NCBI RefSeq assembly: GCF_023277925.1
Contig: NZ_CP063832.1
Span: 372,001 to 436,000 of the forward strand
From: Pseudomonas entomophila
GTDB taxonomy: Bacteria; Pseudomonadota; Gammaproteobacteria; Pseudomonadales; Pseudomonadaceae
DNA: 64,000 nucleotides
Direction: 5' to 3'
Shown: in pieces, positions 26,180 to 51,210 of the stretch
How positions within the stretch are numbered: the stretch's first letter is position 1
Layout: each line of letters opens with the position of its first letter
Translations under genes and position numbers: made by a program
The notes under the pieces: model-generated
Told to the model about the DNA's origin: nothing
Seen by the model: the letters and a program-made list of their open reading frames with translations, nothing else
Databases searched by the model: none

Positions 26180-26628
26180 TCCGGCGGCTCCTGATGCGGT
26201 TGACTGCGATGAGCGGGCGCTGGCGCACGGGCTCGCCATCTCGTCGGTGCAGGCGTTGGCATCACTGGGTTCTGGGCGCGGCGGTCGCGGTTCGGGGCGA
26301 CGCTGCGGGTTATTGTGTATTTATGTTTTTATCAACTTGTATACAAAACGCGAACACACAAAAGCCAGTTCCATGCCATATGGAATCCAACTTTCTCTTT
26401 GCCATTACTTTGAATCTATTGATTAATTTTATAACTAGCTGAAATAGCGAAATTAAAAATTGACTGAATGAACAGTTTTTAATTTTTTGAAGGTCTTTTA
26501 GTTGATCGAGTGGTCAGATTTATGGGCGAGGAGTGTGTAACCTAATGGGGCATCATTTGGTAAAAGTGCACACAAAAACGGCACTTAAGGTGACATTTGT
26601 GTGTACAAGATGATTTGGCGAGACCTCT
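26180..26628. other. AT-rich non-coding leader/intergenic region
   Basis: No gene is visible. It contains the NCS1 promoter region with the 26337 operator and a markedly AT-rich stretch (26310-26600) unlike the surrounding DNA. Within it is AATTAAAAA ... TTTTTAATTTTTT (about 26451-26488), a weak terminator-like hairpin, and a half-site TGTACAAG at 26602-26609. Confidence 0.6.
26337..26346. promoter_or_regulatory. TTGTATACAA operator, NCS1 gene
   Basis: Perfect 10-bp palindrome in context CAACTTGTATACAAAACG, 157 nt upstream of the NCS1 start. One of five sites in the window; matches the FadR-subgroup GntR pattern T-N-GT-AT-AC-N-A. Confidence 0.7.
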
Positions 26629-26711
26629 GTAGGAGCGGCTTTAGCCGCGATCACGCGCGCAGCGGGTGCCAGAACCGTGTTGTTCGCATCGCGGCTAAAG
26701 CCGCTCCTACA
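26629..26711. repeat. Paired REP hairpin, GGCTTTAGCCGCGAT family, intact
   Basis: Perfect 24-bp arms at 26629-26652 and 26688-26711 around a 35-nt loop; preceded by GACCTC. This is the intact reference for the REP interrupted by the IS near 9.84/11.28 kb. Confidence 0.88.
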
Positions 26712-26746
26712 GGGCTGCGCCGTTGTTGCGGAATCTACAGGGCCGA

Positions 26747-27184
26747 TCACGCCATCGGCGGCAGGCGCCGTTTCACCGGGGACTTCTTGATGATTGCCGT
26801 ATTGGTTTCGGCCAGTACATTGAGGCGATCGAGCAGGGTGTCCAGTTGTTCCATCGAGCGCACATGCAGGCGGGCGATGAAGCAATCCTCGCCGGTGACC
26901 TTGTCGCACTCGGTGAACTCGGGAATGGCGACGATTTGCCGTTCCACCTCCTGCAACTGCCCAGGCAGCGGGCGGATGCGCACGATGGCCTGCAACTGGT
27001 AACCGAAGCTACGGGCATCGACCTCCACGGTGTAGCCGCACAGCACGCCGCGTTCCTCCAGGCGGCGCAAGCGCTCGCTGACGCTGGGCGCGGACAGCCC
27101 GCTGATCTGGGCCAGGGCCTTCAGCGAGCGGCGCGAGTCTTCCATCAGAGCATTGATCAGCAGTTGGTCGATAGCGTCGGTCAT
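26747..27184 (-). CDS. Lrp/AsnC-family transcriptional regulator
   Basis: 145 residues. N-terminal helix-turn-helix: DAIDQLLINALMEDSRRSLKA, then ISGLSAPSVSERLRRLEERGVL; C-terminal RAM effector domain with ECDKVTGEDCFIARLHV. The ATG at 27184 sits behind GAGGTG; a GTG two codons earlier overlaps that site and is rejected. It is divergent from an EamA exporter gene. Lrp-type regulators commonly control a neighbouring amino-acid exporter, which is the likely arrangement here. Confidence 0.93.
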   Translation of the reverse strand: MTDAIDQLLINALMEDSRRSLKALAQISGLSAPSVSERLRRLEERGVLCGYTVEVDARSFGYQLQAIVRIRPLPGQLQEVERQIVAIPEFTECDKVTGEDCFIARLHVRSMEQLDTLLDRLNVLAETNTAIIKKSPVKRRLPPMA

Positions 27185-27317
27185 GTTCACCTCGTTAGGC
27201 GATAGTCTCTATTTGCCTTGATAGTAAAGGTGATACCTGGAAAACACCTTCGCTATCCGCTGGATGGCTGCCTCCTGTCCTCCGCATACTGTGCCCATCA
27301 TCGACAGGAGGTGTGAG

Positions 27318-28217
27318 ATGGACAATTCGCTGCGCCGCGGTACCTTGGAAATGGTTGCCGCCATGCTGATCTCCGGGACCATCGGCTGGTTCGTGCTGGT
27401 GTCCGGGCAACCGGTGTTGGAGGTGGTGTTCTGGCGCTGCGTGTTCGGGGCCGGCACCTTGCTGCTGATCTGCGCGGCCATGGGCTTGCTCAAGCCCGGT
27501 GTGCTGACCCGCGCGACCTTCCTGCTGGCGGTGGCCAGTGGGGTGGCCATCGTTGGTAACTGGGTGCTGTTGTTCGCCTCCTACTCGCGGGCCTCCATCG
27601 CTATCGGCACGGCGGTGTACAACGTCCAGCCGTTTTTGCTGGTGGGGCTGGCGGCGTTGTTTCTCGGCGAAAAGATCACCCTACCCAAGCTGACCTGGCT
27701 GAGCGTGGCCTTCCTCGGCATGCTGGCCATCGTCAGCGCCCATGGCGCCGGGCAGGGCAGTGGCGGCGAGTACCTGCTGGGCATCGCCCTGGCCTTGGGC
27801 GCGGCGTTTCTCTATGCCGTGGCGGCGCTGATCATCAAGCGCCTGACAGGCACGCCACCGCACCTGATCGCGCTGGTCCAGGTGAGTACCGGTGTGTTGC
27901 TGCTGGCGCCCTGGGTGAAGCTGGGCGGGCTGCCGGACGAACTGCCGGCACTGGGCAGCCTGGTGACGCTGGGGATCGTGCATACAGGGTTAATGTATGT
28001 GTTGCTGTACAGCGCTATCCAGCGGCTACCCACGGCACTGACCGGCGCCTTGTCGTTCATCTACCCGATCGCGGCTATCCTGGTCGACTGGGTTGCCTTC
28101 GGCCATCGCCTGGCGCCACTGCAGTGGCTGGGCGTGGGGCTGATCCTGCTGGCGGCGGCGGGCATGCAGCAGGGCTGGTGGTTCCGGCGGTTCGCGGGGG
28201 CAGCACAGCAACGGTGA
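27318..28217 (+). CDS. EamA/DMT-family exporter
   Basis: 299 residues with ten predicted helices in two EamA halves (for example ATFLLAVASGVAIVGNWVLLF and LGIVHTGLMYVLLYSAIQRL). Members export amino acids and related metabolites across the inner membrane. The start at 27318 has an AGGAGGTG site. Divergent from the Lrp-type regulator, so an amino-acid substrate is plausible but not shown. Confidence 0.88.
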   Translation: MDNSLRRGTLEMVAAMLISGTIGWFVLVSGQPVLEVVFWRCVFGAGTLLLICAAMGLLKPGVLTRATFLLAVASGVAIVGNWVLLFASYSRASIAIGTAVYNVQPFLLVGLAALFLGEKITLPKLTWLSVAFLGMLAIVSAHGAGQGSGGEYLLGIALALGAAFLYAVAALIIKRLTGTPPHLIALVQVSTGVLLLAPWVKLGGLPDELPALGSLVTLGIVHTGLMYVLLYSAIQRLPTALTGALSFIYPIAAILVDWVAFGHRLAPLQWLGVGLILLAAAGMQQGWWFRRFAGAAQQR

Positions 28218-28273
28218 AGGTCAGTTGCGGGACAAGCGGTTAGAATGCCGCTTTTATCGAACCAAAGCCGAAC

Positions 28274-29203: not shown

Positions 29204-29209
29204 AATGCT

Positions 29210-29275
29210 GTTCGCCAGCAAGCTGGCTCCTACAGGAGATTGCGTGGGGCTGTAGGAACCGACTTGCTGGCGAAA
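29210..29275. repeat. Paired REP-like hairpin, degenerate
   Basis: GTTCGCCAGCAAGCTGGCTC... and ...AACCGACTTGCTGGCGAAA form an imperfect inverted repeat between converging genes. Confidence 0.7.
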
Positions 29276-29279
29276 GCGT

Positions 29280-30467: not shown

Positions 30468-30481
30468 CGCTACAAGCACCT

Positions 30482-32368: not shown

Positions 32369-33784
32369 TCAGACCAACGTCTCGATCCGCAGCGTATTAG
32401 TCGAACCCGGTTTGCCGAAAGGCACACCGGCGGTGATCAGCAGCGTGTCGCCACGGCTGGCCATGCCTTGCGCCTGGGCGATCTCCAGCGCCGTGGAGAC
32501 CACCTCGTCGACCTGGCGCAGGCGGTCGTTGACCACCGAATGCACGCCCCAGGTCACGCTCAGGCGGCGTGCGGTGTTCAGGTTCGGCGTCAGGTTGAGG
32601 ATCGGCGCCCGTGGCCGCTCGCGGGCGGCGCGCAGGGTCGAAGCCCCCGACTCGCTGTAGTTGACCAGCACCGCCACCGGCAGGATGCCGCTGATACGGC
32701 GGATCGCGCAGCTGATGGCGTCGGACACCGTCGCCTCGGCCTTGGGCCGGCCGACGTCGAGCTGGGCCTGGTAGTCCGGGCCGTTCTCCACCTGGCGGAT
32801 GATCTTGCTCATCATCTGCACCGCTTCCAGCGGGTAGTCGCCCGAAGCCGTTTCGGCCGACAGCATCACCGCGTCCGCGCCTTCGGCCACGGCGTTGGCC
32901 ACGTCGGTGACTTCGGCGCGGGTCGGGGCCGGGGAGAAGCGCATCGACTCGAGCATCTGGGTGGCCACCACCACAGGTTTGCCCAGCTGGCGGCAGGTGC
33001 CGATGATGCGCTTCTGGATCTGCGGCACGCTTTCGGCGGGCACTTCCACGCCCAGGTCGCCACGGGCGACCATGATCGCGTCGGACAACTCGGCGATGGC
33101 TTGCAGTTGCTCGACCGCCGAAGGCTTCTCGATCTTGGCCATCAGGTAGGCGCGGTCGCCGATCAGTTGGCGGGCCTCGAGGATGTCTTCGGGGCGCTGC
33201 ACGAACGACAGGGCCACCCAGTCAACGCCCAGTTCCAGGCCGAACGTCAGGTCGCGGCGGTCCTTCTCGGTGAGCGGGGAGAGGTCCAGCACCGCCTGGG
33301 GCACGTTGACCCCCTTGCGGTCGGACAGCTCGCCACCGGCCAGCACTTCGGTATCGATGGCGTCGCTGTGCTTGGCGGTCACCCGCAGACGCAGCTTGCC
33401 GTCGTCCAGCAGCAGGTCCATGCCGGGCTCCAGCGCGGCGATGATTTCCGGGTGTGGCAGGTTGACCCGGCGGCTGTCGCCCGGGGCCTTGTCCAGGTCC
33501 AGGCGCAGGGCCTGGCCGCGTTGCAGTTGCACCTTGCTTTCGGCGAAGCGGCCGACGCGCAGTTTCGGGCCCTGCAAGTCCATGAGAATGCCCAATGGAT
33601 AGTTGAGCTGCTGCTCGACTTCGCGGATCCACTGGTAGCGCAGGGCGTGGTCGGCGTGTTCGCCGTGGCTGAAGTTGAGGCGGAAGATGTTCACCCCGGC
33701 TTCGACCAGTTGGCGGATGTCATCGATGCCTTTGATCGCAGGCCCGAGGGTGGCGAGGATTTTGACTTTTTTATCAGGCGTCAT
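32369..33784 (-). CDS. pyk: Pyruvate kinase
   Basis: 471 residues, normal length. It converts phosphoenolpyruvate and ADP to pyruvate and ATP. Signatures: TLGPAIKGIDDIRQLVEAGVNIFRLNFSHGEH, MAKIEKPSAVEQL (catalytic Lys), MVARGDLGVEVP and the MLSAETASGDYPLE region. It overlaps ttuD by 4 bp, so it is part of the glyoxylate operon and completes the route from glycerate to pyruvate. Confidence 0.97.
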   Translation of the reverse strand: MTPDKKVKILATLGPAIKGIDDIRQLVEAGVNIFRLNFSHGEHADHALRYQWIREVEQQLNYPLGILMDLQGPKLRVGRFAESKVQLQRGQALRLDLDKAPGDSRRVNLPHPEIIAALEPGMDLLLDDGKLRLRVTAKHSDAIDTEVLAGGELSDRKGVNVPQAVLDLSPLTEKDRRDLTFGLELGVDWVALSFVQRPEDILEARQLIGDRAYLMAKIEKPSAVEQLQAIAELSDAIMVARGDLGVEVPAESVPQIQKRIIGTCRQLGKPVVVATQMLESMRFSPAPTRAEVTDVANAVAEGADAVMLSAETASGDYPLEAVQMMSKIIRQVENGPDYQAQLDVGRPKAEATVSDAISCAIRRISGILPVAVLVNYSESGASTLRAARERPRAPILNLTPNLNTARRLSVTWGVHSVVNDRLRQVDEVVSTALEIAQAQGMASRGDTLLITAGVPFGKPGSTNTLRIETLV

Positions 33785-35055
33785 GATTGCGGGGTCTCGA
33801 GGATCAGGATGGCGCGGAAGTCGTTGACGTTGGTGCGGGTCGGCTCGGTGACGATCAGCGCATCGAGCGCCTCGAAGTAGCCATAGCCGTTGTTGTTGTC
33901 CAGCTCGTCGCTGGCCGACAGGCCCAGGGCCTCGGCGCGGGCGTAGCTGGCCGGGGTCATGAAGGCGCCGGCGTTGTCTTCCGAGCCATCGATACCGTCG
34001 GTATCACCAGCCAGGGCATACACGCCCGGCAGGCCCTTGAGGCTTTCGGTGAGGCTGAGCAGGAACTCGGCATTGCGCCCGCCACGGCCGTTGCCGCGCA
34101 CGGTGACGGTGGTCTCGCCACCGGACAGGATCACGCAGGGCGCCTTCAGCGGCTGGCCGTGCAGGACGATCTGCCGAGCGATGCCGGCGTGCACCTTCGC
34201 CACCTCGCGGGACTCGCCTTCCAGGTCGCCGAGGATCAGCGGGCTGAAGCCGGCCTGGCGGGCTTTCACCGCAGCGGCCTCCAGCGACTGCTGGGGCTTG
34301 GCAATGAGCTGGAAGTGGCTGCGGGCGAGGGCGGGGTCGTCGGCCTTGACGGTTTCGGAGGCCGGGTTGTTCAGCCAGTCGATGACCGCTTTCGGCGCTT
34401 CGATGTTGTAGCGCTTGAGGATCGCCAGGGCCTCGGCCGACGTGCTCGGGTCGGCCACGGTGGGGCCGGAGGCGATGACGGTGGCCAGGTCGCCGGGCAC
34501 ATCGGAAATCGCATAGGTGTAGACCGTGGCCGGCCAGCAGGCCTTGGCCAGGCGACCGCCCTTGATCGCCGAGAGGTGCTTGCGCACGCAGTTCATCTCG
34601 CCGATGGTGGCCCCGGACTTGAGCAGGGCCTTGTTGACCTGCTGCTTGTCGGCCAGGGTCAGGCCGTCGGCGGGCAGCGCCAGCAGCGCAGAGCCGCCAC
34701 CGGAGAGCAGGAAGATGACGCGGTCGTCTTCGCTCAGGTTGCCGACCAGCGCCAGCACGCGCTTGGCCACAGCCAGGCCGGCGGCATCGGGGACCGGGTG
34801 GGCGGCTTCGACCACCTCGATTTTCTGGCAGCTGGCACCATGGCCGTAGCGGGTGACCACCAGGCCGGAGACTTCGCCTTGCCAGCTCTTCTCGACCACT
34901 TCGGCCATGGCGGCGGCGGCCTTGCCGGCACCAATGACGATGACCCGGCCGCTGCGATCGGCGGGTAGGTAGGGTTCCAGCACCTGGCGGGGGTGGGCGG
35001 CGGCGATGGCTGTGTCGAACAGCTCGCGCAGGAGTTCTTGTGGATCGACCGACAT
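33781..35055 (-). CDS. ttuD: Glycerate 2-kinase / MOFRL-family (TtuD)
   Basis: 424 residues. The start at 35055 (MSVDPQELLRELFDTAI) is preferred; a longer frame to 35196 reads through a region with no conservation. Marks: IVIGAGKAAAAMAEVVEKSW, the loop LLSGGGSALLALPADGLTL, and the MOFRL C-terminus with ILSGGETTVTVRGNGRGGRN and ALAGDTDGIDGSEDNAGAF. Older literature calls TtuD hydroxypyruvate reductase; the domain family is glycerate 2-kinase. In this operon it phosphorylates glycerate from GlxR to 2-phosphoglycerate. The ATGA overlap with pyk couples translation. Confidence 0.9.
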   Translation of the reverse strand: MSVDPQELLRELFDTAIAAAHPRQVLEPYLPADRSGRVIVIGAGKAAAAMAEVVEKSWQGEVSGLVVTRYGHGASCQKIEVVEAAHPVPDAAGLAVAKRVLALVGNLSEDDRVIFLLSGGGSALLALPADGLTLADKQQVNKALLKSGATIGEMNCVRKHLSAIKGGRLAKACWPATVYTYAISDVPGDLATVIASGPTVADPSTSAEALAILKRYNIEAPKAVIDWLNNPASETVKADDPALARSHFQLIAKPQQSLEAAAVKARQAGFSPLILGDLEGESREVAKVHAGIARQIVLHGQPLKAPCVILSGGETTVTVRGNGRGGRNAEFLLSLTESLKGLPGVYALAGDTDGIDGSEDNAGAFMTPASYARAEALGLSASDELDNNNGYGYFEALDALIVTEPTRTNVNDFRAILILETPQS

Positions 35056-35194
35056 GGCAGGCTCCCAAAGTTCTTGTTGTTCTGCAGAATCGAAAACGCC
35101 CCTGGAACTGCCTCCGTGCAGGCCGAACCAGGGGCGGGTGTTGCTCGGTGCCACCTTATGGACCTGTGGTTGCAGGTTCATGGGTGTTGGCCGC

Positions 35195-35268
35195 ATCGCG
35201 GATGAATCCGCTCCTACAGGCCATTCATTGCGATCGGATCAACCTGTAGGAGCGGATTCATCCGCGAA
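35195..35268. repeat. Paired REP hairpin, GGATTCATCCGCGA variant
   Basis: ATCGCGGATGAATCCGCTCC... (35195-35220) pairs with ...GAGCGGATTCATCCGCGAA (35243-35268). It separates glxR from ttuD and may cause differential operon expression. Confidence 0.8.
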
Positions 35269-35282: not shown

Positions 35283-36176
35283 TTACTTATCGTCGCGGAT
35301 CGAGAAGTTGGCCATGTGTTCCAGGCCCTTGATCAGCGCCGAGTGGTCCCAGTTGCCGCCACCCAATGCCACGCAGGTGCTGAACACTTGCTGGGCGTTG
35401 GAGGTGTTGGGCAGGTTGATGCCCAGCTCCTTGGCACCTTGCAGGGCCAGGTTCAGGTCCTTCTGGTGCAGGTTGATGCGGAAGCCCGGGTCGAAGGTGC
35501 CCTTGATCATGCGCTCGGCGTGCACTTCGAGGATCTTCGACGAGGCGAAGCCGCCCATCAGCGCCTCACGCACCTTGGCCGGGTCGGCGCCGTTCTTGGC
35601 GGCGAACAGCAGCGCTTCGCCGACGGCCTGGATGTTCAGGGCGACGATGATCTGGTTGGCGACCTTGGCGGTCTGGCCGTCACCGTTGCCACCGACGCGG
35701 GTGATGTTCTTGCCCATGGCTTCGAACAGCGGCAGGGCGCGCTCGAAGGCTTTCGGGCAGCCACCGACCATGATGCTCAGGGTCGCGGCCTTGGCGCCGA
35801 CTTCACCACCGGAGACCGGGGCGTCCAGATAGGCAGCGCCGGTGGCCTTGATCTTCTCGGCGAAGGCCTTGGTCGCGGTAGGGGAGATCGAGCTCATGTC
35901 GATCACCACCTTGTTCGGGCCGACACCTTCGACGACACCATTCTCACCGAACAGCACGCTTTCGACCTGCGGGGTGTCCGGCACCATGACGATGATGAAC
36001 TCAGCTTCCTGGGCCACTTCCTTCGGGTTGGCCAGGGCGACGGCGCCGGCGGCGATCAGGTCGGCCGGGGCGGCGTCGTGGTGGGTGGAAACGAAGATGC
36101 TGTGACCTGCTTTTTGCAGGTTCTGGGCCATGGGCTTGCCCATGATGCCGGTGCCGAGGAAACCGATTTTAGCCAT
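35283..36176 (-). CDS. glxR: Tartronate semialdehyde reductase (2-hydroxy-3-oxopropionate reductase)
   Basis: 297 residues of the beta-hydroxyacid dehydrogenase family. N-terminal NADP-binding KIGFLGTGIMGKPMAQNL, substrate motif DAPVSGGEVGAKAATL and the catalytic Lys in GDGQTAKVANQIIVALNI (about residue 170). It reduces tartronate semialdehyde, made by Gcl, to glycerate. It lies between hyi and ttuD on the same strand. Confidence 0.95.
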   Translation of the reverse strand: MAKIGFLGTGIMGKPMAQNLQKAGHSIFVSTHHDAAPADLIAAGAVALANPKEVAQEAEFIIVMVPDTPQVESVLFGENGVVEGVGPNKVVIDMSSISPTATKAFAEKIKATGAAYLDAPVSGGEVGAKAATLSIMVGGCPKAFERALPLFEAMGKNITRVGGNGDGQTAKVANQIIVALNIQAVGEALLFAAKNGADPAKVREALMGGFASSKILEVHAERMIKGTFDPGFRINLHQKDLNLALQGAKELGINLPNTSNAQQVFSTCVALGGGNWDHSALIKGLEHMANFSIRDDK

Positions 36177-36310: not shown

Positions 36311-37093
36311 TCAGATTGCGTTGTGCGTCTTCAACCAGCCCAGGCCGGCTTCAGTGGTGGTCTTGGGCTTGTATTCCGCGCCCACCCAGCCCTGGTAGCC
36401 GATGCGGTCCAGGTGCTCGAACAGGAAGCGGTAGTTGATCTCGCCGGTGCCCGGCTCGTGACGGCCTGGGTTGTCGGCCAATTGCACGTGGTTGATCAGC
36501 TTGAGGTTGGTTTCCAGGGTGCGGGCCAGGTCACCTTCCATGATCTGCATGTGGTAGATGTCGTACTGCAGGAACAGGTTGTCGCTGCCGACCTCGGCCT
36601 GGATCTCCAGGGCCTGCTTGGTGGTGTTCAGGTAGAAGCCGGGGATATCGCGGGTGTTGATCATTTCCATGACCAGGCGGATCCCGGCGGCCTCGAGCTT
36701 GTCGGCGGCGTAGCGCAGGTTTTCCACGAAGGTCTTGCGCACCGTGGCGCAGTCCAGGCCTTCGGGGCGGATGCCGGCCAGGGCGTTGACCTGGGTGTTG
36801 CCCAGCACCTTGGCGTACTCGATGGCCTTGTCGACACCGGCGCGGAATTCTTCGATGCGGTCGGGGTGGCAGGTGATGCCACGCTCACCTTTGGACCAAT
36901 CGCCCGCGGGCAAGTTGAACAGCACTTGCGTCAGGCCATGGGCCTCGAGCTGCTGCTTGATCTCGGTGGCGTTGAAATCGTACGGGAAGAGGTATTCGAC
37001 ACCGCTGAAGCCAGCGTCGGCGGCGGCCTTGAAGCGGGCCAGGAAGTCCTGTTCGGTGAACAGCATGGACAGGTTGGCGGCGAAGCGAGGCAT
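36311..37093 (-). CDS. hyi: Hydroxypyruvate isomerase
   Basis: 260 residues, TIM-barrel of the xylose-isomerase-like (AP_endonuc_2) superfamily. Typical stretches are PRFAANLSMLFTEQDFLARF, GFSGVEYLFPYDFNATEI and LEHLDRIGYQGWVGAEYKP; metal-ligand acidic residues occur in VMEMINTRDIPGF and the following beta-strands. It interconverts hydroxypyruvate and tartronate semialdehyde. It follows gcl after 54 bp, the standard order. Confidence 0.95.
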   Translation of the reverse strand: MPRFAANLSMLFTEQDFLARFKAAADAGFSGVEYLFPYDFNATEIKQQLEAHGLTQVLFNLPAGDWSKGERGITCHPDRIEEFRAGVDKAIEYAKVLGNTQVNALAGIRPEGLDCATVRKTFVENLRYAADKLEAAGIRLVMEMINTRDIPGFYLNTTKQALEIQAEVGSDNLFLQYDIYHMQIMEGDLARTLETNLKLINHVQLADNPGRHEPGTGEINYRFLFEHLDRIGYQGWVGAEYKPKTTTEAGLGWLKTHNAI

Positions 37094-37147: not shown

Positions 37148-38923
37148 TCAGTCCAGCAGCGAGATGGCGGTTGGCGCGTCGTTACCCACCAGGGCGAGGT
37201 CTTCGAACTCGTTGACCGCGTTGATCTCGGTGCCCATGGAAATGTTGGTCACGCGCTCGAGAATAACTTCGACCACCACCGGTACGCGGAACTCTTCGGC
37301 CATCTTCTGCGCCTTGAGCAGGGCAGGGGCGATGTCGGCCGGTTCGAACACACGGATGGCCTTGCAACCCAGGCCTTCGACCACGGCGACGTGGTCGACG
37401 CCATAGGTGGCGGCGTCGGTGGCGTTGATGTTCTCGAAGGCCAGTTGTACACAGTAATCCATGTCGAAGCCACGCTGGGCCTGGCGGATCAGGCCGAGGT
37501 AGGCGTTGTTCACCAACACGTGGACATACGGCAGGTTGAACTGCGCGCCCACCGCCAGCTCTTCGATCATGAACTGGAAGTCGTAGTCACCCGAGAGCGC
37601 GACGACCTTGCGCTTCGGATCGGCCTTGACCACGCCCAGCGCGGCCGGGATGGTCCAGCCCAGCGGGCCGGCCTGGCCGCAGTTGATCCAGTGGCGTGGC
37701 TTGTACACGTGCAGGAACTGCGCGCCGGCGATCTGCGACAAACCGATGGTGCTGACGTAGCAGGTGTCCTTGCCGAATACCTGGTTCATCTCCTCGTACA
37801 CGCGCTGCGGCTTGACCGGCACGTTGTCGAAGTGGGTCTTGCGCTGCAGGGTGGCCTTGCGCTGCTGGCAGTCTTCCAGCCAGGCCTTGCGGCACTTGAG
37901 CTTGCCTGCGGCTTTCCACTCGCGGGCGACTTCGAGGAACACGTCCAGTGCCTTGCCGGCATCGGAAACGATACCCAGGTCAGGGGTGAACACGCGGCCG
38001 ATCTGGGTCGGTTCGATGTCCACGTGCACGAACTTGCGGCCTTCGGTGTAGACGTCGACCGAGCCGGTGTGGCGGTTGGCCCAGCGGTTGCCGATACCGA
38101 ACACCAGGTCGGACTTGAGCAGGGTGGCGTTGCCGTAGCGGTGCGAGGTCTGCAGGCCGACCATGCCGACCATCAACTCGTGATCATCCGGGATGGTGCC
38201 CCAGCCCATCAGGGTCGGGATCACCGGCACGCCGGTCAGTTCGGCGAACTCGACCAGTTTGTCGCTGGCGTCGGCGTTGATGATGCCGCCGCCAGCCACC
38301 AGCAGTGGGCGTTCGGCGTCATTGAGCAGGGCCAGGGCTTTTTCGGCCTGCACGCGAGTGGCGGACGGCTTGTGCACCGGCAGCGGCTCGTAGGCGTCGA
38401 TGTCGAATTCGATCTCGGCCATCTGCACGTCGAACGGCAGGTCGATCAGCACTGGGCCTGGGCGGCCAGTGCGCATTTCATAGAAGGCTTTCTGGAAGGC
38501 GTAAGGCACCTGGCCGGGTTCCAGGACGGTGGTGGCCCACTTGGTGACCGGCTTGACGATGCTGGTGATGTCGACGGCCTGGAAGTCTTCCTTGTGCAGG
38601 CGGGCGCGTGGCGCCTGGCCGGTGATGCAGAGGATCGGGATGGAGTCGGCGCAGGCGCTGTACAGGCCGGTGACCATGTCGGTGCCGGCAGGGCCGGAGG
38701 TGCCGATGCACACACCGATATTGCCCGGGTTGGCGCGGGTGTAGCCCTCGGCCATGTGCGAGGCGCCTTCGACGTGGCGAGCGAGGACGTGATCGATGCC
38801 ACCGACTTTCTTCAGGGCCGAGTACAGCGGGTTGATGGCGGCCCCCGGAATGCCGAACGCGGTATCTACACCTTCACGGCGCATGACCAGAACGGCTGCA
38901 TCGATTGCTCTCATTTTGCTCAT
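37148..38923 (-). CDS. gcl: Glyoxylate carboligase
   Basis: 591 residues. A thiamine-diphosphate and FAD-binding enzyme that condenses two glyoxylates into tartronate semialdehyde with loss of CO2. Marks: [36 protein letters not shown] (N-terminal PYR domain; note the Val in place of the usual catalytic Glu is a known feature of Gcl), and the ThDP motif [21 protein letters not shown]. First gene of a gcl-hyi-glxR-ttuD-pyk run. A TTGTATACAA palindrome lies only 25 nt upstream of its start. Confidence 0.97.
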
Positions 38924-39088: not shown

Positions 39089-39098
39089 TTGTATACAA
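39089..39098. promoter_or_regulatory. TTGTATACAA operator, GlcG-like gene
   Basis: Perfect palindrome in context AAAAAATTGTATACAAAACG, 82 nt upstream of the GlcG-like start. With 38949 it brackets the divergent promoter region. Confidence 0.75.
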
Positions 39099-39180: not shown

Positions 39181-39621
39181 ATGAACGCATTGACCCTGAA
39201 AGTCGCCGTTGGCGTGGTGAATGCCGCGCTGGCCGCAGGCCGCAAGATCAACGCCGCGCCATTGACGGTGGCGGTGCTGGACGCTGGCGGGCACCTGCTG
39301 GCGCTGCAACGGGAGGACGGCGCCAGCCTGCTGAGGCCCGAGGTGGCCATCGGCAAGGCCTGGGGCGCGGTGGCCCTGGGCAAGGGTTCACGCCTGCTGG
39401 CGCTGGATTCGCAGCAGCGGCCAGCGTTCTACGCCGCGCTGAATGGGTTGGGTGAGCGGCCGGTGGTGCCGGTGCCGGGTGGGGTGCTGATCCGTGATCA
39501 GGAGGGCAAGGTGTTGGGTTCGGTGGGGATCAGCGGGGATACGTCGGACATCGACGAGCAGTGCGCGATCAATGCGATCGAGGCAGTGGGGCTGACGGCG
39601 GATGCCGGGGTGGCGGCTTAA
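39181..39621 (+). CDS. GlcG/HbpS-like (DUF336) protein
   Basis: 146 residues, no signal peptide. The GlcG fold is shown by LTVAVLDAGGHLLALQREDGAS, IGKAWGAVALGKGSR and VPGGVLIRDQEGKVLGSVGISGD with the conserved DEQCA motif near the C-terminus. The start at 39181 sits behind AAGAGGA. Relatives bind heme or flavin-like ligands or are linked to glycolate/glyoxylate genes; no enzymatic role is proven. It is divergent from gcl and shares the same palindromic operator, so a glyoxylate-pathway accessory role is likely. Confidence 0.85.
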   Translation: MNALTLKVAVGVVNAALAAGRKINAAPLTVAVLDAGGHLLALQREDGASLLRPEVAIGKAWGAVALGKGSRLLALDSQQRPAFYAALNGLGERPVVPVPGGVLIRDQEGKVLGSVGISGDTSDIDEQCAINAIEAVGLTADAGVAA

Positions 39622-43936: not shown

Positions 43937-44719
43937 TCAGAAGTGAACTTTGACCAGCAAGCTTGCGGTGTTCTGGTCGGTGGTGAAACCGTCGCTGTCC
44001 TTGATGCCGTACTTGTTCTTCCAGTAGTCGTACTCGATACCCACGTACAACTGCTTCTCGCCCAGGTGCAGGGCCTTGCCCAGGTCGTACTTGATCTGCG
44101 GGTTGAAGTGCAGGTTGGCCTGGTAGGTACCCCGACGGTTCTCGTCGTTGTCCACCACCCAGTCCATGAAGCCGTCGATCAGCACGTCGGACGAGCCCAC
44201 GGGGATGGTGTAGGACCAGACCGGGGTGATCTGCCAGACATTGTCACCCGGGCGGCTGCCGTCGGTGGTGCGCTGGTAGAAGTTCAGCTGGAAGTAGTCG
44301 AAGCCGGGGATGGCCAGGTCGAAACCGGGGCCGATCAGGTACGACTCGGTGTCACCCTCGCCGAACTCGTAGGTCATCGCCAGCAGCACGTCCTTTACCG
44401 GGCCGAACTCGAGCTTCTGGTCGAAGATCTTGCCGAACGACAGGCGCGGGCTGATCTCGCCGTAGTAGGTGTTGGGGCCGTTGTTGGCGTCCTTCTTGCC
44501 CTGGTAGAAGATCTTGTCGACGAAGATGAAGTTGTCGCCGTACTTCCACGCATCGGCGTGCTCGAAGGTGAAGGTCTGCTGGGTCTCGGGGTTGACCTTG
44601 AAGTTCTTGCCCCACAGGTAGGTCAGGCTGTTGTTCTGCCATTGCAGCAGGTCGCCGGCTTGGCTGGCACCGCAGGCCAGCAGGCCGCCGGCGAGGATCA
44701 GGCTATTGATGGTACGCAT
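43937..44719 (-). CDS. Tsx/OmpK-family outer-membrane channel, paralogue 1
   Basis: 260 residues with signal peptide (MRTINSLILAGGLLACGASQA, cut before GDLLQW). The mature protein is an amphipathic beta-barrel ending in VKVHF with a terminal Phe, the outer-membrane insertion signal. NSLTYLWGKNFKVNPETQQT and KDVLLAMTYEFGEGD mark the nucleoside-specific channel (Tsx) family. A close paralogue lies 350 bp away. Both are next to the purine permease and urate genes, so nucleoside, nucleobase or urate uptake across the outer membrane is likely. Confidence 0.88.
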   Translation of the reverse strand: MRTINSLILAGGLLACGASQAGDLLQWQNNSLTYLWGKNFKVNPETQQTFTFEHADAWKYGDNFIFVDKIFYQGKKDANNGPNTYYGEISPRLSFGKIFDQKLEFGPVKDVLLAMTYEFGEGDTESYLIGPGFDLAIPGFDYFQLNFYQRTTDGSRPGDNVWQITPVWSYTIPVGSSDVLIDGFMDWVVDNDENRRGTYQANLHFNPQIKYDLGKALHLGEKQLYVGIEYDYWKNKYGIKDSDGFTTDQNTASLLVKVHF

Positions 44720-45070: not shown

Positions 45071-45856
45071 TCAGAAATGCACTTTGACCAGCGCGCTGGC
45101 GACGCTCTGATTGCTGTCCAGGTTGCCGCGGCTGTCGATGCCGTACTTGTCTTTCCAGTAGCTGTACTCGAAGCCCACGTAGAGCTGCTTGGCGCCCAGG
45201 TTCAGGGCCTTGCCCAGGTCGTACTTGACCTGTGGGTTGAAGTGCAGGTTGGCGTGGTAGGTGCCGCGACGGGTCTGGTCGTTGTCGGTCACCCAATCCA
45301 TGTAGCCGTCGATCAGGATGTCCGACCTGCCCACGGGAATGGTGTACGACCAACCGGGGGTGATCTGCCAGACGTTGTCGCCTGGGCGGCTGCCCTCGGT
45401 GTTGCGCAGGTAGAAGTTCAGGGTGAAGTAGTTGAAGCCGGGGATGTCCAGGTCGAAGCCGGGGCCGATCAGGTAGGCCTCGTTGTCGCCCTCGCCACGC
45501 TCGTAGGTCATGGCCAGCAGCACATCCTTGACCGGGCCGAAGGCCAGCTTGCGTTCGAAGATCTTGCCGAACGACAGGCGCGGGCTGAATTCGCCGTAGT
45601 AGGTGGTGACGCCTTTGCCGGGGTCGGCCTTGCCGTTGTAGAAGATCTTGTCGACGAACAGGAAGGTGTCGCCGTACTTCCACTTGTTGGCATGCTCGAA
45701 GGTGACGGTCTGCTGGATGTCGGGGTTGATCTTGAAATCCTTGCCGTACAGGTAGGTCAGGCTTTCGCCGTGCCATTGCAGCCATTCGCCGGCGTGGGAG
45801 GGGAGGGTGGCCAGCAGGCTGCTGCCCAGCAGAACGGACGTGGTGATGCGCTTCAT
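45071..45856 (-). CDS. Tsx/OmpK-family outer-membrane channel, paralogue 2
   Basis: 261 residues; the start at 45856 gives the signal peptide MKRITTSVLLGSSLLATLPSHA (cut before GEWLQW), then a barrel ending in VKVHF. It shares long identical stretches with paralogue 1 (YLYGKDFKINPD, SPRLSFGKIF, SRPGDNVWQITP), so the pair is a tandem duplication. It is the gene nearest the NCS2 permease (142 bp), suggesting co-regulated uptake. Confidence 0.88.
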   Translation of the reverse strand: MKRITTSVLLGSSLLATLPSHAGEWLQWHGESLTYLYGKDFKINPDIQQTVTFEHANKWKYGDTFLFVDKIFYNGKADPGKGVTTYYGEFSPRLSFGKIFERKLAFGPVKDVLLAMTYERGEGDNEAYLIGPGFDLDIPGFNYFTLNFYLRNTEGSRPGDNVWQITPGWSYTIPVGRSDILIDGYMDWVTDNDQTRRGTYHANLHFNPQVKYDLGKALNLGAKQLYVGFEYSYWKDKYGIDSRGNLDSNQSVASALVKVHF

Positions 45857-45998
45857 GTTGTGGTTCCCGGACTTATTGTTTTTGTTTGGGGCTTTTTCGG
45901 CGCGCAGGCGCCCCGGGCGGCCCATTCCGGCGGGCCGACGGTCAAGCGGTTGCTGCTTGTCGGATGTTGGGGCGGCACTTGAGTGCCGCCCCGGTCAC

Positions 45999-47354
45999 TC
46001 AATGCGGGTGACAGGCTTCGTTGTGCACGGCGCGCTCGGCGCCGCCGAGGATGTTGAACAACAGGTTCAGCACCAGTGCGCTGAGGGTGGCCATGGCGAT
46101 GCCGCTGTGGGTGATGGGCTCCATCCACTGTGGCATCTGTGCGAAGAACTCCGGACGGACCACAGGGATCAGGCCGAAGCCGACACTGACTGCGACCAGC
46201 AGCTGGTTGCGACGGTCGGAGATGTCCGCCTCCTGGAGGATCTTGATCCCGGTGGCGGTGACCATGCCGAACATGGCGATGGACGCGCCACCCAGGACTG
46301 CGGGCGGGATCGAGGCAATCAGGAAGGCCGCCTTGGGCAGCAGGCTGAGCAGGATCAGCAGGGCGCCGGCCATGACGGTGACGTAGCGGCAGCGCACCCC
46401 GGTCATCTGCACCAGCCCGATGTTCTGGGCGAACGAGGAGTGGGTGAAGGTGTTGAAAAAGCCGGCGATGAACGACGCGCCAGCGTCGCACAGCAGGCCA
46501 CGACGCAGCATCCCAGGCGTTACTTCACGGTCGGTCACCTTGCCCAGGGCGAGGAACATGCCGGTGGACTCGACGAAGATAATCACCACCACCAGGCACA
46601 TCGACAGGATCGGTGCCAGGCTGAAGGTCGGCATGCCGAAGTGCAGGGGGGTGACCACCTGCAGCCACGGTGCCTCGCTCAGGCCCGACAGGTCGACCAT
46701 GCCGATGGAGCCGGCGAGCACGTAGCCCAGGCCCATGCCCACCAGTACCGACACATTGACCCAGAAACCGCGCATGAAGCGGTTGATCAACAGGATCACC
46801 GCCAGCACCAGGCCGGCCACCATCAGGTAGATCGGCGCGCCGAAGGCCTGCGCTTCTTGGCCGCCACCGGCCCAGTTGACCGCTACCGGGAACAGCGACA
46901 AGCCAATGGAGGTGATGACCGTGCCGGTCACCAGCGGCGGGAAGAAACGCACGACCTTGGACATGAACGGCGCGATCAGCATGCCGAAGAAGCCGGCCGC
47001 GATGGTCGCGCCGAAGATCCCCTGCAAACCGACGCCAGGCATGCCGGCCATGGCCACCATGCTGCCGACCGCCGCGAAGCTGGCGCCCATCATGACGGGC
47101 ATGCGGATGCCCACGGGGCCGATACCGAAGGATTGGATGATGGTGGCAACGCCAGCGACCAGCAGGTCGGCGTTGATCAGGAAGGCGACTTCTTCGCGGG
47201 ACAGGCCCGCCGCCTGGCCGATGATCAGGGGCACCGCGATGGCGCCACCGTACATCAGCAGAACGTGTTGCAGACCCACCAGGATCAGTTGGAACAAGGG
47301 CAGGGGCTGTCGCGGCGGCGCAACGGGGATGTACGCCTTGCGTGACTCGGACAT
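45999..47354 (-). CDS. NCS2-family purine permease (xanthine/urate type)
   Basis: 451 residues, 14 transmembrane segments, inner membrane. Marks: QLILVGLQHVLLMYGGAIAVPLIIGQAAGLS at the N-terminus, and the substrate-binding TM8-10 region LVVVIIFVESTGMFLALGKVTDRE plus NTFTHSSFAQNIGLVQMTGV (the QNxGLVxxTG motif). The NSSFAQNIG arrangement fits proton-coupled xanthine or urate carriers. It lies downstream of puuD on the same strand, so urate or xanthine is the likely cargo. Confidence 0.92.
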   Translation of the reverse strand: MSESRKAYIPVAPPRQPLPLFQLILVGLQHVLLMYGGAIAVPLIIGQAAGLSREEVAFLINADLLVAGVATIIQSFGIGPVGIRMPVMMGASFAAVGSMVAMAGMPGVGLQGIFGATIAAGFFGMLIAPFMSKVVRFFPPLVTGTVITSIGLSLFPVAVNWAGGGQEAQAFGAPIYLMVAGLVLAVILLINRFMRGFWVNVSVLVGMGLGYVLAGSIGMVDLSGLSEAPWLQVVTPLHFGMPTFSLAPILSMCLVVVIIFVESTGMFLALGKVTDREVTPGMLRRGLLCDAGASFIAGFFNTFTHSSFAQNIGLVQMTGVRCRYVTVMAGALLILLSLLPKAAFLIASIPPAVLGGASIAMFGMVTATGIKILQEADISDRRNQLLVAVSVGFGLIPVVRPEFFAQMPQWMEPITHSGIAMATLSALVLNLLFNILGGAERAVHNEACHPH

Positions 47355-47399: not shown

Positions 47400-47443
47400 C
47401 TTCGGCGGCGGGCCCTGCAGGAAAGCCCTGGGTGCCGCCGAAG
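47400..47443 (-). promoter_or_regulatory. Stem-loop in the puuD-NCS2 spacer
   Basis: CTTCGGCGGC (47400-47409) pairs perfectly with GCCGCCGAAG (47434-47443) around a 24-nt loop that itself contains GGGC/GCCC. No U-tract follows on the minus strand, so it is a leader structure or processing site rather than a clear terminator. Confidence 0.45.
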
Positions 47444-47506
47444 TCCTAGCTCGATGCTTGCAACGTACTACTTACAGCTTGACGTCTTGAAAACGGGGTG
47501 TCGCGA

Positions 47507-48826
47507 TCAGTTGACCCGCGCACCAGCGGCGATCCAGTCGCCGACCAGCTTGCGTTCTTCGACGGTCATCTGAGTGATGTTGCCCAGCGGCATGATCTGG
47601 CTGGCGACAGCCTGCGCCTGGATGCGCGCGGCCTGGGCCTGGATCTGCTGTGGGGTATCGAACATCACGCCGGCCGGGGCGGCGCTGAACAGTGGGCTGG
47701 TCGGTTTGGCCGAATGGCACACGGTGCAGCGTTCCTGGATGACGTCGTGGATTTTGTCGAAGCTGCCAGTGGCCGCTTGGGCCGTGGCCTGGACGGGTTG
47801 CGCGGCAGGTGCCTCGGCAGGCTTGGCGGCTTCCTCGGCGCGCAGTTCGGCAGCGGTCTTGCCACCCACGGCGGTAGCCGGCAGCGGCTGGTACTCGACC
47901 TTCGCGGCAGCCTGCTCAGGGGCGGTTGGCAGCGGTTTCGGACCGGTCACGTAGGCCAGGCAGATCATCGCCAGGGCACCGACAGGCAGGGTCCATGCGT
48001 ATTTGTTGCTGTCGTGGCGGGTGTTGAAGTAGTGACGGATCAGTACCGCGGCCACTGCGATCCCGGCCAGGATCAGCCAGTTGTACTGGCTGCCGTAGGT
48101 GCTCGGGAAGTGGTTGCTGATCATGATGAACAGCACCGGCAGGGTGAAGTAGTTGTTATGGCGCGAACGCAGCAGGCCCTTGGCCGGCAGTACCGGGTCC
48201 GGGGTCTGGTTGTTCTCGATGGCCGCCACCAGTTGGCGCTGGGCCGGCATGATGATGCGGAACACGTTACCCACCATGATGGTGCCGATGATCGCGCCGG
48301 TGTGCAGGTAGGCGCCGCGGCCGCTGAACACCAGGCTGAAGCCCCAGCAGGCGGCGATGATCAGCACGAACAGCACGGCGCCGAGCAGGGCCGGCTTCTT
48401 GCCCAGGGGCGAGTCGCAGAGGAAGTCGTAGATGAACCAGCCGGCAATCAGCGAGCCGATACCGATAGCCACGCCCTCGGCACCGCTCAGGGTGCTGCCC
48501 GGTGCCAGCAGGTAAAGCGCAGGGTTCCAGTAGAACACCACGCACAGCAGGGCAATACCGGACATCCAGGTGAAGTAGGCCTCCCATTTGAACCAGTGCA
48601 GGTTCTCGGGCATTTTCGGGGGCGCCAGCTTGTATTTTTCCAGGTGGTAGATGCCGCCACCGTGGATGGCCCAGAGGTCACCCGACAACCCATCGCGCGG
48701 GTTGCTTCGGTTCAGGTGGTTCTCCAGCCAGACAAAATAGAACGATGCACCGATCCAGGCCACGCCGGTGATCATGTGAACCCAGCGAATGCTCAGGTTC
48801 AGCCATTCGTGAAGGTGTGCTTCCAC
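47507..48826 (-). CDS. puuD: Urate hydroxylase (cofactor-independent PuuD), cytochrome-c-fused
   Basis: 439 residues. Roughly residues 1-280 form an eight-helix membrane domain (starting LHEWLNLSIRWVHMITGVAWIGASFYFVWLENHL); the C-terminal 150 residues carry a soluble cytochrome c domain with the heme motif CTVCHS and a distal Met in ASQIMPLGNITQMT. PuuD oxidises urate to 5-hydroxyisourate and passes electrons through the heme to the respiratory chain, replacing oxygen-dependent uricase. The product is the substrate of uraH at 51320. First-step gene of the urate cluster. Confidence 0.95.
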   Translation of the reverse strand: MEAHLHEWLNLSIRWVHMITGVAWIGASFYFVWLENHLNRSNPRDGLSGDLWAIHGGGIYHLEKYKLAPPKMPENLHWFKWEAYFTWMSGIALLCVVFYWNPALYLLAPGSTLSGAEGVAIGIGSLIAGWFIYDFLCDSPLGKKPALLGAVLFVLIIAACWGFSLVFSGRGAYLHTGAIIGTIMVGNVFRIIMPAQRQLVAAIENNQTPDPVLPAKGLLRSRHNNYFTLPVLFIMISNHFPSTYGSQYNWLILAGIAVAAVLIRHYFNTRHDSNKYAWTLPVGALAMICLAYVTGPKPLPTAPEQAAAKVEYQPLPATAVGGKTAAELRAEEAAKPAEAPAAQPVQATAQAATGSFDKIHDVIQERCTVCHSAKPTSPLFSAAPAGVMFDTPQQIQAQAARIQAQAVASQIMPLGNITQMTVEERKLVGDWIAAGARVN

Positions 48827-48871
48827 AGTATGTACCTCTCGCCAGTCACCCTTTTGATGACCGACCCTTTC

Positions 48872-49375
48872 TTATTGGTGGGGATTGAGGACCAACATCT
48901 GTTCCTCGGGGAAGTAATGCTCATCGCAGTTGTTGCCGGAACCACTGCGATCAACCACCAGGAAGTCATCCCGCTTTTCGATCGTCAGCACCGGGTGGTG
49001 CCAGACGCCGCGATGGTAATTAATGCCCTGCCTGCCATTACTGCGGAAGGCTCGGACCAAGCCTGATACAGGTGCATCGCCAACGGGCGCGACCACGATC
49101 AGAAAGGGGTTGCCGAGCAGCGGGATGAAAGCCTGGCTGCCCAGCGGATGGCGTTCCAGCATGCGCACGGTCAACGGCATCTCCAGCGCGTCGGCGCGGA
49201 AGATGCTGATGATCGCCTTGTCCTCGGGCTCGGCGGTCTCGACCGTGGCGAGCTTGTGGAAGCGCATGGTCGAGCCGTTGTTGATCATGAAGTGGTCGCT
49301 GCCATCGGTTTCGATCACGTCACCGAACGGGGCGAAGGCTTCTTTGGTCAGGGGCTCGATCATCAGGGTGCGCAT
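48872..49375 (-). CDS. allA: Ureidoglycolate lyase
   Basis: 167 residues. Start at 49375 (MRTLMIEPLTKEAFAPFGDVIE); a longer open frame to 49453 adds 26 residues without conservation. Cupin-like family marks: GSTMRFHKLATVE, RHPLGSQAFIPL, and NYHRGVWHHPVLTI, where the His residues form the active site. It splits ureidoglycolate into glyoxylate and urea. Glyoxylate feeds Gcl at 37148. Directly upstream of puuD in the same direction. Confidence 0.95.
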   Translation of the reverse strand: MRTLMIEPLTKEAFAPFGDVIETDGSDHFMINNGSTMRFHKLATVETAEPEDKAIISIFRADALEMPLTVRMLERHPLGSQAFIPLLGNPFLIVVAPVGDAPVSGLVRAFRSNGRQGINYHRGVWHHPVLTIEKRDDFLVVDRSGSGNNCDEHYFPEEQMLVLNPHQ

Positions 49376-49477
49376 GCGGTTATCTCTTCTGTGTTCGTTG
49401 TTCTTGAAATAGGGTGGGCTGTCTTGCCCCGGCAGGCCCTGGGTGTCATGCACTCGGGCCAGGCCGGGCGACTGCCC

Positions 49478-49993
49478 TCAAAGCTGCAGCAGGCGGAACA
49501 GCGCGATCAGGTTGATCTGCGCCAGGGCTTCCTTGAATTCGGTGTCTTTGTCGTTGTGGATGCGCTTTTCGAAGGCGGCGAGGATCTGGTGCCGGTTGCT
49601 GCCCTTGACCGCCATGATGAACGGGAACTGGAACTTGGCCTTGTACGCATCGTTCAGCGCGGTGAAACGAGCGAACTCTTCGGCGGTGCACTGGTGGATG
49701 CCGGCACCGGCTTGCTCGTTGGTGCTCGACTCGGTCAGCTCACCCTGGATGGCGGCTTTGCCGGCGAGGTCCGGGTGCGCGTTGATCAGTGCCAGCTGGT
49801 CCGCCTGGTTGGCGCTGAGCAGGATGTCGCTCATGCGCTGGTGCAGCGCCTCGATCTCGTCCAGCTCGGCCAGTTGCCCCAGGTCATGGGCTTTTTCGGC
49901 GACCCACGGCGAGTGCTCGTAGATATCGGCGAAAGCCTCGACGAAGGCGGCGCGGTCCAGGGTGGAGGGCTTGAGGGTGTTGAAAGCGGTCAT
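49478..49993 (-). CDS. uraD: OHCU decarboxylase
   Basis: 171 residues. It decarboxylates 2-oxo-4-hydroxy-4-carboxy-5-ureidoimidazoline to S-allantoin, third step from urate. Family marks: DIYEHSPWVAEKA with the catalytic-site His, NAHPDLAGKAA (HPDLAG is diagnostic), and FQFPFIMAVKGSNRHQILAAFE. The start codon overlaps the puuE stop by one base (TGATG). Sits between puuE and allA, leaving a 102-bp gap to allA. Confidence 0.96.
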   Translation of the reverse strand: MTAFNTLKPSTLDRAAFVEAFADIYEHSPWVAEKAHDLGQLAELDEIEALHQRMSDILLSANQADQLALINAHPDLAGKAAIQGELTESSTNEQAGAGIHQCTAEEFARFTALNDAYKAKFQFPFIMAVKGSNRHQILAAFEKRIHNDKDTEFKEALAQINLIALFRLLQL

Positions 49994-50919
49994 CAGGCGT
50001 TCTCTTTCTTGTACGGGTGGGTGGCGTGCCAGTGGCGGGCGATATCCACGCGACGGGCGAACCAGACCTGCTCGTGGCTCTTGGCGTAGTCGACGAAACG
50101 CTTGAGCGCGGCCAGGCGCGCCGGGCGGCCGACCAGGCGGCAGTGAAGGCCGATCGACAGCATTTTCGGGGCGTCGGCACCTTCGGCGTAGAGCACGTCG
50201 AAGGCGTCTTTCAGGTATTGGTAGAACTGCTCGCCGCAGTTGAAGCCCTGTACCTGGGTGAAGCGCATGTCGTTGGTGTCCAGGGTGTAGGGGATCACCA
50301 AGTGTGGCTTGCCGGTCGGGTTGTTCGGCTCCCAGTAGGGCAGGTCGTCGTCGTAGGTGTCGCTGTCGTAGAGGAAGCCGCCTTCCTCCATCACCAGGCG
50401 TCGAGTGTTCGGGCCGGTGCGACCGGTGTACCAGCCCAGCGGGCGTTCGCCGGTGATCTCGGTGAGAATGCGGATGGCTTCGAGCATGTGCTCGCGCTCC
50501 TGCGCCTCGTCCATGTTCTGGTAGTCGATCCAGCGGTAGCCGTGGCTGCAGATCTCATGGCCCGCCTGGGCCATGGCACGGATCACGTCGGGGTGGCGCT
50601 GGGCGGCCATGGCCACGGCGAAGATGGTCAGCGGCACGCCGCTGTCCTTGAACAGCTTGAGCAGGCGCCAGACGCCGGCGCGGCTGCCGTACTCGTAGAG
50701 CGACTCCATGCTCATGTTGCGCTGGCCCTGGAGCGGTTGGGCGGCGACCATTTCGGAGAGGAAGGCTTCGGATTCCTTGTCGCCGTGCAGGATGTTGCGC
50801 TCGCCACCTTCCTCGTAGTTGAGCACGAAGGACAGTGCAATGCGGGCATTCCCCGGCCATTGCGGATGAGGTGGGTTGTTGCCGTAACCGATCAGGTCGC
50901 GAGGGTAGTCAGCGCTCAC
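49993..50919 (-). CDS. puuE: Allantoinase, PuuE (polysaccharide-deacetylase fold)
   Basis: 308 residues. Not the amidohydrolase-type allantoinase but the NodB-fold, cofactor-independent PuuE. Marks: DYPRDLIGYGNNPPHPQWPGNARIALSFVLNYEEGGE, the EYGSRAGVWRLLKLF loop, and GHEICSHGYRWIDYQ. It opens the allantoin ring to allantoate. First gene of the leftward uraD-allA-puuD run, with a TTGTATACAA palindrome 76 nt upstream. Confidence 0.96.
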   Translation of the reverse strand: MSADYPRDLIGYGNNPPHPQWPGNARIALSFVLNYEEGGERNILHGDKESEAFLSEMVAAQPLQGQRNMSMESLYEYGSRAGVWRLLKLFKDSGVPLTIFAVAMAAQRHPDVIRAMAQAGHEICSHGYRWIDYQNMDEAQEREHMLEAIRILTEITGERPLGWYTGRTGPNTRRLVMEEGGFLYDSDTYDDDLPYWEPNNPTGKPHLVIPYTLDTNDMRFTQVQGFNCGEQFYQYLKDAFDVLYAEGADAPKMLSIGLHCRLVGRPARLAALKRFVDYAKSHEQVWFARRVDIARHWHATHPYKKENA

Positions 50920-50995
50920 TGCAGTCTTCCTTCTTGTACGTGAATGCGGGTGGTGGGCGGGCCGCGTCGGGATGTCGCACCACCGGATGGGCTGA

Positions 50996-51005
50996 TTGTA
51001 TACAA
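50996..51005. promoter_or_regulatory. TTGTATACAA operator, puuE
   Basis: Perfect palindrome 76 nt upstream of puuE. Read in the direction of transcription it is AAGTTGTATACAAT, the same flanking bases as at gcl. Confidence 0.75.
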
Positions 51006-51200
51006 CTTATCAATTCTTTTGTAAGTCTGTTTTTCCGCATTTCTTCCCATTTGTCGCCTTGGAATGGCTTGCAAGAAACTTGCCCGTTTGGTCAGTTAAT
51101 GACAGGGGCGTCTTTACCCGGCCTGAGTTTGCGACTGCTGGGCCTTATATAAGAGGGTGAGCGTGGGTCAGTCGGCGGTCAGGCGGGTTGGCTCAAAAAA

Positions 51201-51210
51201 TTGTGTACAA
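51201..51210. promoter_or_regulatory. TTGTGTACAA operator, uraH
   Basis: One-base variant of the palindrome in the context AAAAAATTGTGTACAATTTA, 109 nt upstream of uraH. Its flank AAAAAATTGT matches the site at 39089. Confidence 0.65.

Follow-up and report, generated by a model that had tools for sequence, protein, structure and literature searches.

Which regulator, if any, ties together the promoters of purine uptake, urate breakdown and glyoxylate use in Pseudomonas entomophila? The question is raised by a stretch of 64,000 nucleotides (contig NZ_CP063832.1, positions 372,001 to 436,000; hereafter, the window), in which a ten-base palindrome, TTGTATACAA, or its one-base variant, TTGTGTACAA, stands upstream of a gene for an NCS1-family permease, of gcl (glyoxylate carboligase), of a GlcG-like gene, and of puuE and uraH of the urate pathway. 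Comparative evidence makes it very probable that these boxes are the operators of a single repressor of the UgmR/GclR type, i.e., a GntR-family protein with an FCD domain, the predicted gene of which lies ca. 85 kb from uraH.

A sequence-only reading of the window had placed the palindrome at 26337, 38949, 39089, 50996 and 51201; all five positions are correct, and every site falls into a promoter gap. The window contains four exact copies of TTGTATACAA (shuffle mean 0.00) and five copies with at most one mismatch (shuffle mean 0.25, largest 2), as judged against 100 dinucleotide shuffles for each mismatch level. The same reading had seen no copy in the interior of a gene, which holds for exact and one-mismatch copies but not at two mismatches, where TTGTACACAG is found at 37445 inside gcl. 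The recurring flanks were found as described: the boxes of gcl and puuE share AAGTTGTATACAAT on the minus strand, and those at 39089 and 51201 share AAAAAATTGT. The proposed likeness to FadR-subgroup sites holds as well, since the box, TTGT-AT-ACAA, fits the operator consensus of this subfamily, i.e., TKGT/ACMA half-sites with a spacing of two to three bases between GT and AC (PMC4494728). A promoter scan at gcl returned one promoter-like hexamer pair just upstream of the box (0.3 expected), and scans at NCS1 and puuE–uraH gave no promoter match.

Chance commonness of the motif, which would have spoken against the original proposal, was not borne out for the exact box, which occurs in 10 places in the genome (a single contig of 5,755,740 bases) against none for the reversed control. 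With up to one mismatch allowed, 23 places were found vs. 16 in the control; the one-mismatch copies alone (23 minus the 10 exact ones, i.e., 13 vs. 16) are not enriched and were rejected as members in general. Since this class stays at background, the case for the variant TTGTGTACAA at 51201 depends on its conservation (see below) and not on its rarity. The notion that boxes occur only at purine and glyoxylate genes was upheld for the five sites of the window but not genome-wide, where other genes carry the box too: six of the ten exact copies fall outside the window, one at a xanthine-type permease gene and five not at obvious purine genes.

The genome encodes ten FCD-domain matches. One of them, possessing a GntR winged helix-turn-helix domain (wHTH; PF00392, 62.4 bits) and an FCD domain (PF07729, 84.2 bits), both above cut-off, has TTGTGTACAA at C1:508485, in the gap between its gene and that of a divergent xanthine/uracil-family permease. 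Hence, a FadR-type GntR gene bearing the same box and encoded outside the window, as the sequence-only reading had anticipated, is indeed present. The protein is 100% identical to the regulator of Pseudomonas entomophila COR5 (L043). In its AlphaFold model, built from 37 rather similar sequences, the wHTH is succeeded by a C-terminal part with six helices (residues 90 to 221); this fits the FCD type and agrees with the all-helical C-terminal domain (six or seven helices, 150–170 residues) of the FadR subfamily. The predicted local distance difference test score (mean 67.7) is mostly above 75 over the helices but low in the wHTH and towards the two termini, for which reason the model is not used to propose DNA contacts.

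Comparison with other genomes shows the box to be conserved at these promoters. A scan of named genomes confirmed at least 540 relatives of the regulator, and in the best 80 loci, which were analysed, TTGTATACAA or TTGTGTACAA lies 44–217 bp upstream of the regulator gene in all 80. In 55 of these P. putida-group loci, puuE and uraH both lie no more than 10 kb from the regulator (some of the remaining 25 end at a contig boundary), and in 55 of 55 cases the region between the two divergent genes contains TTGTATACAA nearer to puuE and TTGTGTACAA nearer to uraH. Thus, the regulator is the usual neighbour of the puuE–uraH cluster in named P. putida-group loci; in the P. entomophila genome only a permease gene adjoins it, and in G025 it resides on a different contig from puuE–uraH.

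The second comparison set comprised 57 genomes, P. entomophila included (36 of the same genus and 21 order-level relatives). Here, the box precedes the regulator gene in 29 of the 30 loci; the remaining one (L242) has the regulator directly after uraH, with its closest boxes in the puuE–uraH gap. The gap between gcl and the GlcG-like gene has two exact boxes in 24 of 29 loci, one in two and none in three (30 loci were returned, and L152, 34% identical and not a gcl orthologue, was dropped), the box of the GlcG-like gene being kept together with that of gcl. Among the 21 NCS1 orthologues (identity 74% or higher), 19 are preceded by the exact box (of 30 loci returned, nine of at most 43% identity were dropped, one of which, L180, has the box). 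At the third permease, a xanthine-type protein encoded outside the window (L021), the box was found in 25 of 26 loci, after four of at most 45% identity had been dropped from the 30 returned.

The number of boxes also tracks the regulator. If a match of at least 80% identity is taken as an orthologue (the copy in G034 is split in two pieces), 31 of the 36 same-genus genomes possess the regulator and contain 7.5 exact boxes on average (range 1–11), whereas the five genomes without it (G001, G013, G014, G026, G028) contain 0, 0, 0, 1 and 1 (mean 0.4); across all 36, the reversed control gives 0.42 on average. In the 21 order-level relatives, the mean is 2.0 boxes (up to 6) and 1.7 control matches (up to 8). 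Conservation of the box, its presence before the regulator gene and this co-occurrence together strongly support the earlier proposal of one regulon under a FadR-subgroup GntR protein encoded elsewhere.

The loci lacking the box show two natural rewirings. In three of the 29 gcl loci (G012, G020, G022; L149–L151), gcl has no box and is divergent from a LysR-type gene with helix-turn-helix and substrate-binding domains; G020 keeps the boxes at puuE–uraH and the regulator, and G012 that of the third permease. This rewiring, with gcl beside a LysR gene and the GntR gene elsewhere, is that of the TtdR-controlled cluster of P. umsongensis GO16, where gcl is preceded by the gene of the LysR-type TtdR and growth was reportedly unaffected when a GntR gene of 89% identity was deleted (PMC13357446); such loci differ from the window, where gcl does have a box. 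The two NCS1 loci without the box (2 of 21: G007, L355:3462, and G015, L356:4195) carry TTGCATACAA in its place, and another GntR-FCD gene, 34–36% identical to the repressor, adjoins NCS1, which suggests a possible switch of operator and regulator of the NCS1–racemase pair. In G026 (L354), a more distant NCS1 gene and a racemase gene likewise flank an FCD gene.

A regulon of this kind has already been described, namely that of UgmR (PA1520) in P. aeruginosa and of GclR (PP_4283) in P. putida. UgmR, a GntR protein, binds upstream of gcl and of PA1513–PA1518 and represses them, and uric acid, but not allantoin, lifts this repression (PMC12694930); induction by a purine-pathway metabolite, postulated earlier from the window, fits this report. 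Compared by the published description of PA1520 rather than by protein sequence, the two systems have in common a GntR repressor over the gcl and allantoin clusters and a similar clustered gene set, and urate as the inducer would fit. They differ in that the regulator gene is here 85 kb away from uraH, and that the NCS1–racemase pair, the GlcG-like gene, the third permease and azurin also carry the box. GclR is a GntR repressor, the loss of which frees gcl in P. putida (PMC9206389, PMC11166783); its gene, located 12 kb upstream of the gcl cluster, has been connected to xanthine metabolism (PMC13357446). The best 80 loci share such a layout, and residue 130 is E in both proteins, in agreement with the E130* allele of PMC9206389, a weak clue to orthology. 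GclR differs in having been described for ethylene glycol use, the passages concerning it mentioning neither an operator nor a wider regulon. Literature passages on UgmR and GclR give no operator sequence, although one may still be in print, and a text search for the string TTGTATACAA returned nothing on this subject among the matches listed. In Escherichia coli, one repressor, AllR, links allantoin and glyoxylate genes as well; unlike the protein considered here, AllR belongs to the IclR family and has another operator.

According to the proposed mechanism, a repressor dimer on each palindrome would block transcription of puuE–uraD–allA–puuD–permease, of uraH and of gcl–hyi–glxR, perhaps together with the glycerate kinase and pyruvate kinase genes, as well as of the GlcG-like gene, the NCS1–racemase pair and two further permease genes outside the window. 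Urate would release the repressor (a step taken from the P. aeruginosa literature) and thereby switch on its own oxidation, the uptake of allantoin and purines, and the disposal of the end product, glyoxylate. As expected of members of one regulon, gcl and the allantoin/urate cluster have a common operator. Membership of the NCS1 permease, suggested earlier on account of its box, remains probable; uptake of purine bases, the role then proposed, fits less well than that of allantoin. Since NCS1 is directly adjacent to a gene whose product strongly matches an allantoin racemase of solved structure, the pair is best read as serving allantoin uptake and racemisation, the substrate of NCS1 being predicted from this neighbourhood.

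Possibly new are the operator sequence with its footprints and the inclusion of the NCS1–racemase pair, the GlcG-like gene and the third permease, as well as the boxes before azurin and, in fewer genomes, at fliK/ccm, hemE, lpd/cfa and a VOC-family gene. The repressor whose loss lets P. putida grow on ethylene glycol would thus obtain a concrete operator, TTGTRTACAA, and its deletion would be predicted to release allantoin uptake and racemisation, three permeases and the GlcG-like protein.

Among the sites beyond purine genes is an exact box in the gap between azurin and a LOG gene. Azurin stands beside LOG in 19 of 30 LOG loci, and the box is exact in 15 of them, has one mismatch in two and is missing from two (L298, L312); two more azurin loci (G003, G017), located via the box itself, carry it exactly. 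None of the 11 LOG loci without azurin has the box, making LOG a less likely target. These boxes were read by position and not by alignment column, as the joint alignment misplaced those of P. fluorescens-type genomes, where the box lies at a different offset, which may mean an independent gain. The fliK/ccmA gap has an exact box in four of 30 ccmA loci and a one-mismatch copy at another offset in two more. In these four, 36% of the columns of the region are invariant, and its longest invariant stretch is the 22 bases made up of the box and its flank. This stretch, however, extends to the apparent start of fliK, which lies two bases from the box, so that fliK may itself be the target or may account for the conservation. 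The box at hemE is limited to three of 30 loci (the P. entomophila genome and two near relatives) and is only the third-longest invariant run of a region that is 78% invariant; hence, hemE was rejected as a genus-wide member. The gap between lpd (dihydrolipoyl dehydrogenase) and cfa has the box in P. entomophila and two of the five genomes with all exact boxes listed, and a VOC-family gene has it 23–31 bp upstream of the match in four of five orthologues of at least 75% identity. Of the 41 exact boxes in those five genomes (G003, G007, G015, G017, G034), 26 stand at purine, glyoxylate and regulator genes, six at azurin, lpd/cfa or fliK/ccm, eight elsewhere with no match to the box-bearing genes of P. 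entomophila, and one was left unassigned.

PuuD, the membrane urate oxidase, bears a haem-c motif, and azurin, ccm and hemE share the operator, so the repressor may also tune electron transfer. Urate would then induce PuuD plus the parts that mature it (ccm, hemE) and drain its electrons (azurin). PuuD has been suggested to oxidise urate through cytochrome c, and ccmC mutants of Sinorhizobium meliloti are impaired in purine use (PMC4562309). Still, control by the urate repressor of the cytochrome and electron-carrier supply for PuuD seems rather unlikely: the hemE and ccm sites occur in few genomes only, and lpd, cfa and the VOC-family gene have no clear place in the idea. A soluble transhydrogenase was considered and rejected as the identity of the gene beside cfa (L019), which scores 550 bits with the NCBIfam dihydrolipoyl dehydrogenase model (cut-off 408.8) vs. 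345.6 with the transhydrogenase model (cut-off 465); with this redox piece lost, our already low estimate was lowered slightly further. None of the literature matches listed combined azurin with uric acid, urate oxidase, gclR or GntR, and the physiological role of azurin is called poorly understood in a 2026 abstract (PMC13413535). Should the azurin and ccm sites prove to be genuine targets, azurin would gain a testable job in purine oxidation.

The main rival for such an extension, azurin sites included, is an FCD-GntR paralogue that would share the box with the urate repressor, so that some sites, above all the non-purine ones, would belong to it. We regard this as possible, if on balance improbable. 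The paralogue is 47% identical to the repressor, and the recognition-helix motif VSRTxIRR, with its unusual R-R, is common to both, the other eight FCD proteins of the genome having R-E-A at this place. All 17 genomes with an exact azurin box encode a second match of 42–51% identity; yet the paralogue gene has no exact or one-mismatch box within 10 kb, G023 has nine boxes with a second match of only 37%, and three of the four azurin loci lacking an exact box come from genomes (G007, G009, G015) that nevertheless have a match of 49–51%.

Assignment of the boxes to a single UgmR/GclR-type repressor has to be weighed against several points, the like recognition helix of the paralogue among them. 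The difference in box counts between genomes with and without the regulator (Mann–Whitney p 0.0005) ignores relatedness and relies on only five genomes without it, and some order-level genomes lacking a close relative of the regulator have up to six boxes. Orthology to PA1520 and PP_4283 is predicted from gene order, domain type and published description; among the 120 listed of 1520 homologues, no entry is named PA1520, UgmR, PP_4283 or GclR. In P. aeruginosa, gcl is also induced by allantoin through a route thought not to involve UgmR, and sites for PA3782 and for a second GntR protein, PA0120, were found at gcl by systematic evolution of ligands by exponential enrichment (PMC12694930); the PA0120 site adds to the case for the paralogue, their equivalence being only a guess.

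A chance origin, in which the box would be an AT-rich palindrome common in promoters, might explain why half of the ten genomic copies have no obvious purine gene beside them and why one-mismatch copies are no commoner than the control, but it was rejected as practically untenable in view of the reversed control (10 exact copies vs. 0) and the same-gene conservation across the genus. Action through DNA or RNA structure is hardly conceivable either: a perfect 10-base palindrome could self-pair, but it has no loop, its distance to the start codon varies from 26 to about 110 bp within the window, and it fits the FadR-subfamily consensus (PMC4494728) and tracks a GntR gene.

Table 1. Coordinates of the boxes and genes considered (positions in the window unless a locus or contig is given).
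Feature	Position	Strand	Remark
Operator box TTGTATACAA	26337..26346	unstranded	98 bp from NCS1 open reading frame start
Operator box TTGTATACAA	38949..38958	unstranded	26 bp from gcl start
Operator box TTGTATACAA	39089..39098	unstranded	83 bp from assumed start of GlcG-like gene
Operator box TTGTATACAA	50996..51005	unstranded	puuE upstream gap
Operator variant TTGTGTACAA (one-base change)	51201..51210	unstranded	uraH upstream gap
NCS1 permease, allantoin permease-like	24644..26239	-	277 bits to NCBIfam allantoin permease model (cut-off 620)
Allantoin racemase	23898..24641	-	directly downstream of NCS1; PDB 5lfd 'Allantoin racemase', 448.7 bits
gcl, glyoxylate carboligase	37148..38923	-	
hyi	36311-37093		downstream of gcl
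glxR	35283-36176		after hyi
Glycerate kinase-like	33781-35196		after glxR
Pyruvate kinase	32369-33784		after glycerate kinase-like gene
GlcG/HbpS-like protein	39181..39621	+	PF03928; solved relatives include EfgA (E 6e-11)
puuE, allantoinase	49993..50919	-	first gene of same-strand run
uraD	49478-49993		puuE run
allA	48872-49453		puuE run
PuuD, membrane urate oxidase	47507..48826	-	puuE run; C-terminal CTVCH haem-c motif, residue 367
pbuX-type permease	45999-47354		puuE run
Tsx-like proteins (two)	45071-45925 and 43937-44719		puuE run
uraH, hydroxyisourate hydrolase	51320..51673	+	divergent from puuE run
FCD-type GntR gene, candidate repressor	G000:C1:508698-509453 (L022:3199-3957)		ca. 85 kb from uraH, outside window
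Exact box, azurin/LOG gap	L018:5903 (G000:C1:3737402)		
FCD-GntR paralogue	L353:7326-8006 (G000:C1:615325-616005)		beside another FCD gene and dicarboxylate symporter

Several further occurrences were recorded. The one-mismatch form TTGTACACAA is found between ccoP-like and ccoN-like genes of the cbb3 oxidase cluster (L023:3039; G000:C1:544738) and also beside a molybdopterin oxidoreductase gene (L025), the membership of both being unproven. Exact boxes at L243:1569 (G015) and L254:1596 (G007) lie in apparently matching stretches, seemingly inside coding sequence. Finally, a near-copy of the box, GTGTGTACAA, is located at 26599 of the window, about 260 bp from the NCS1 box.

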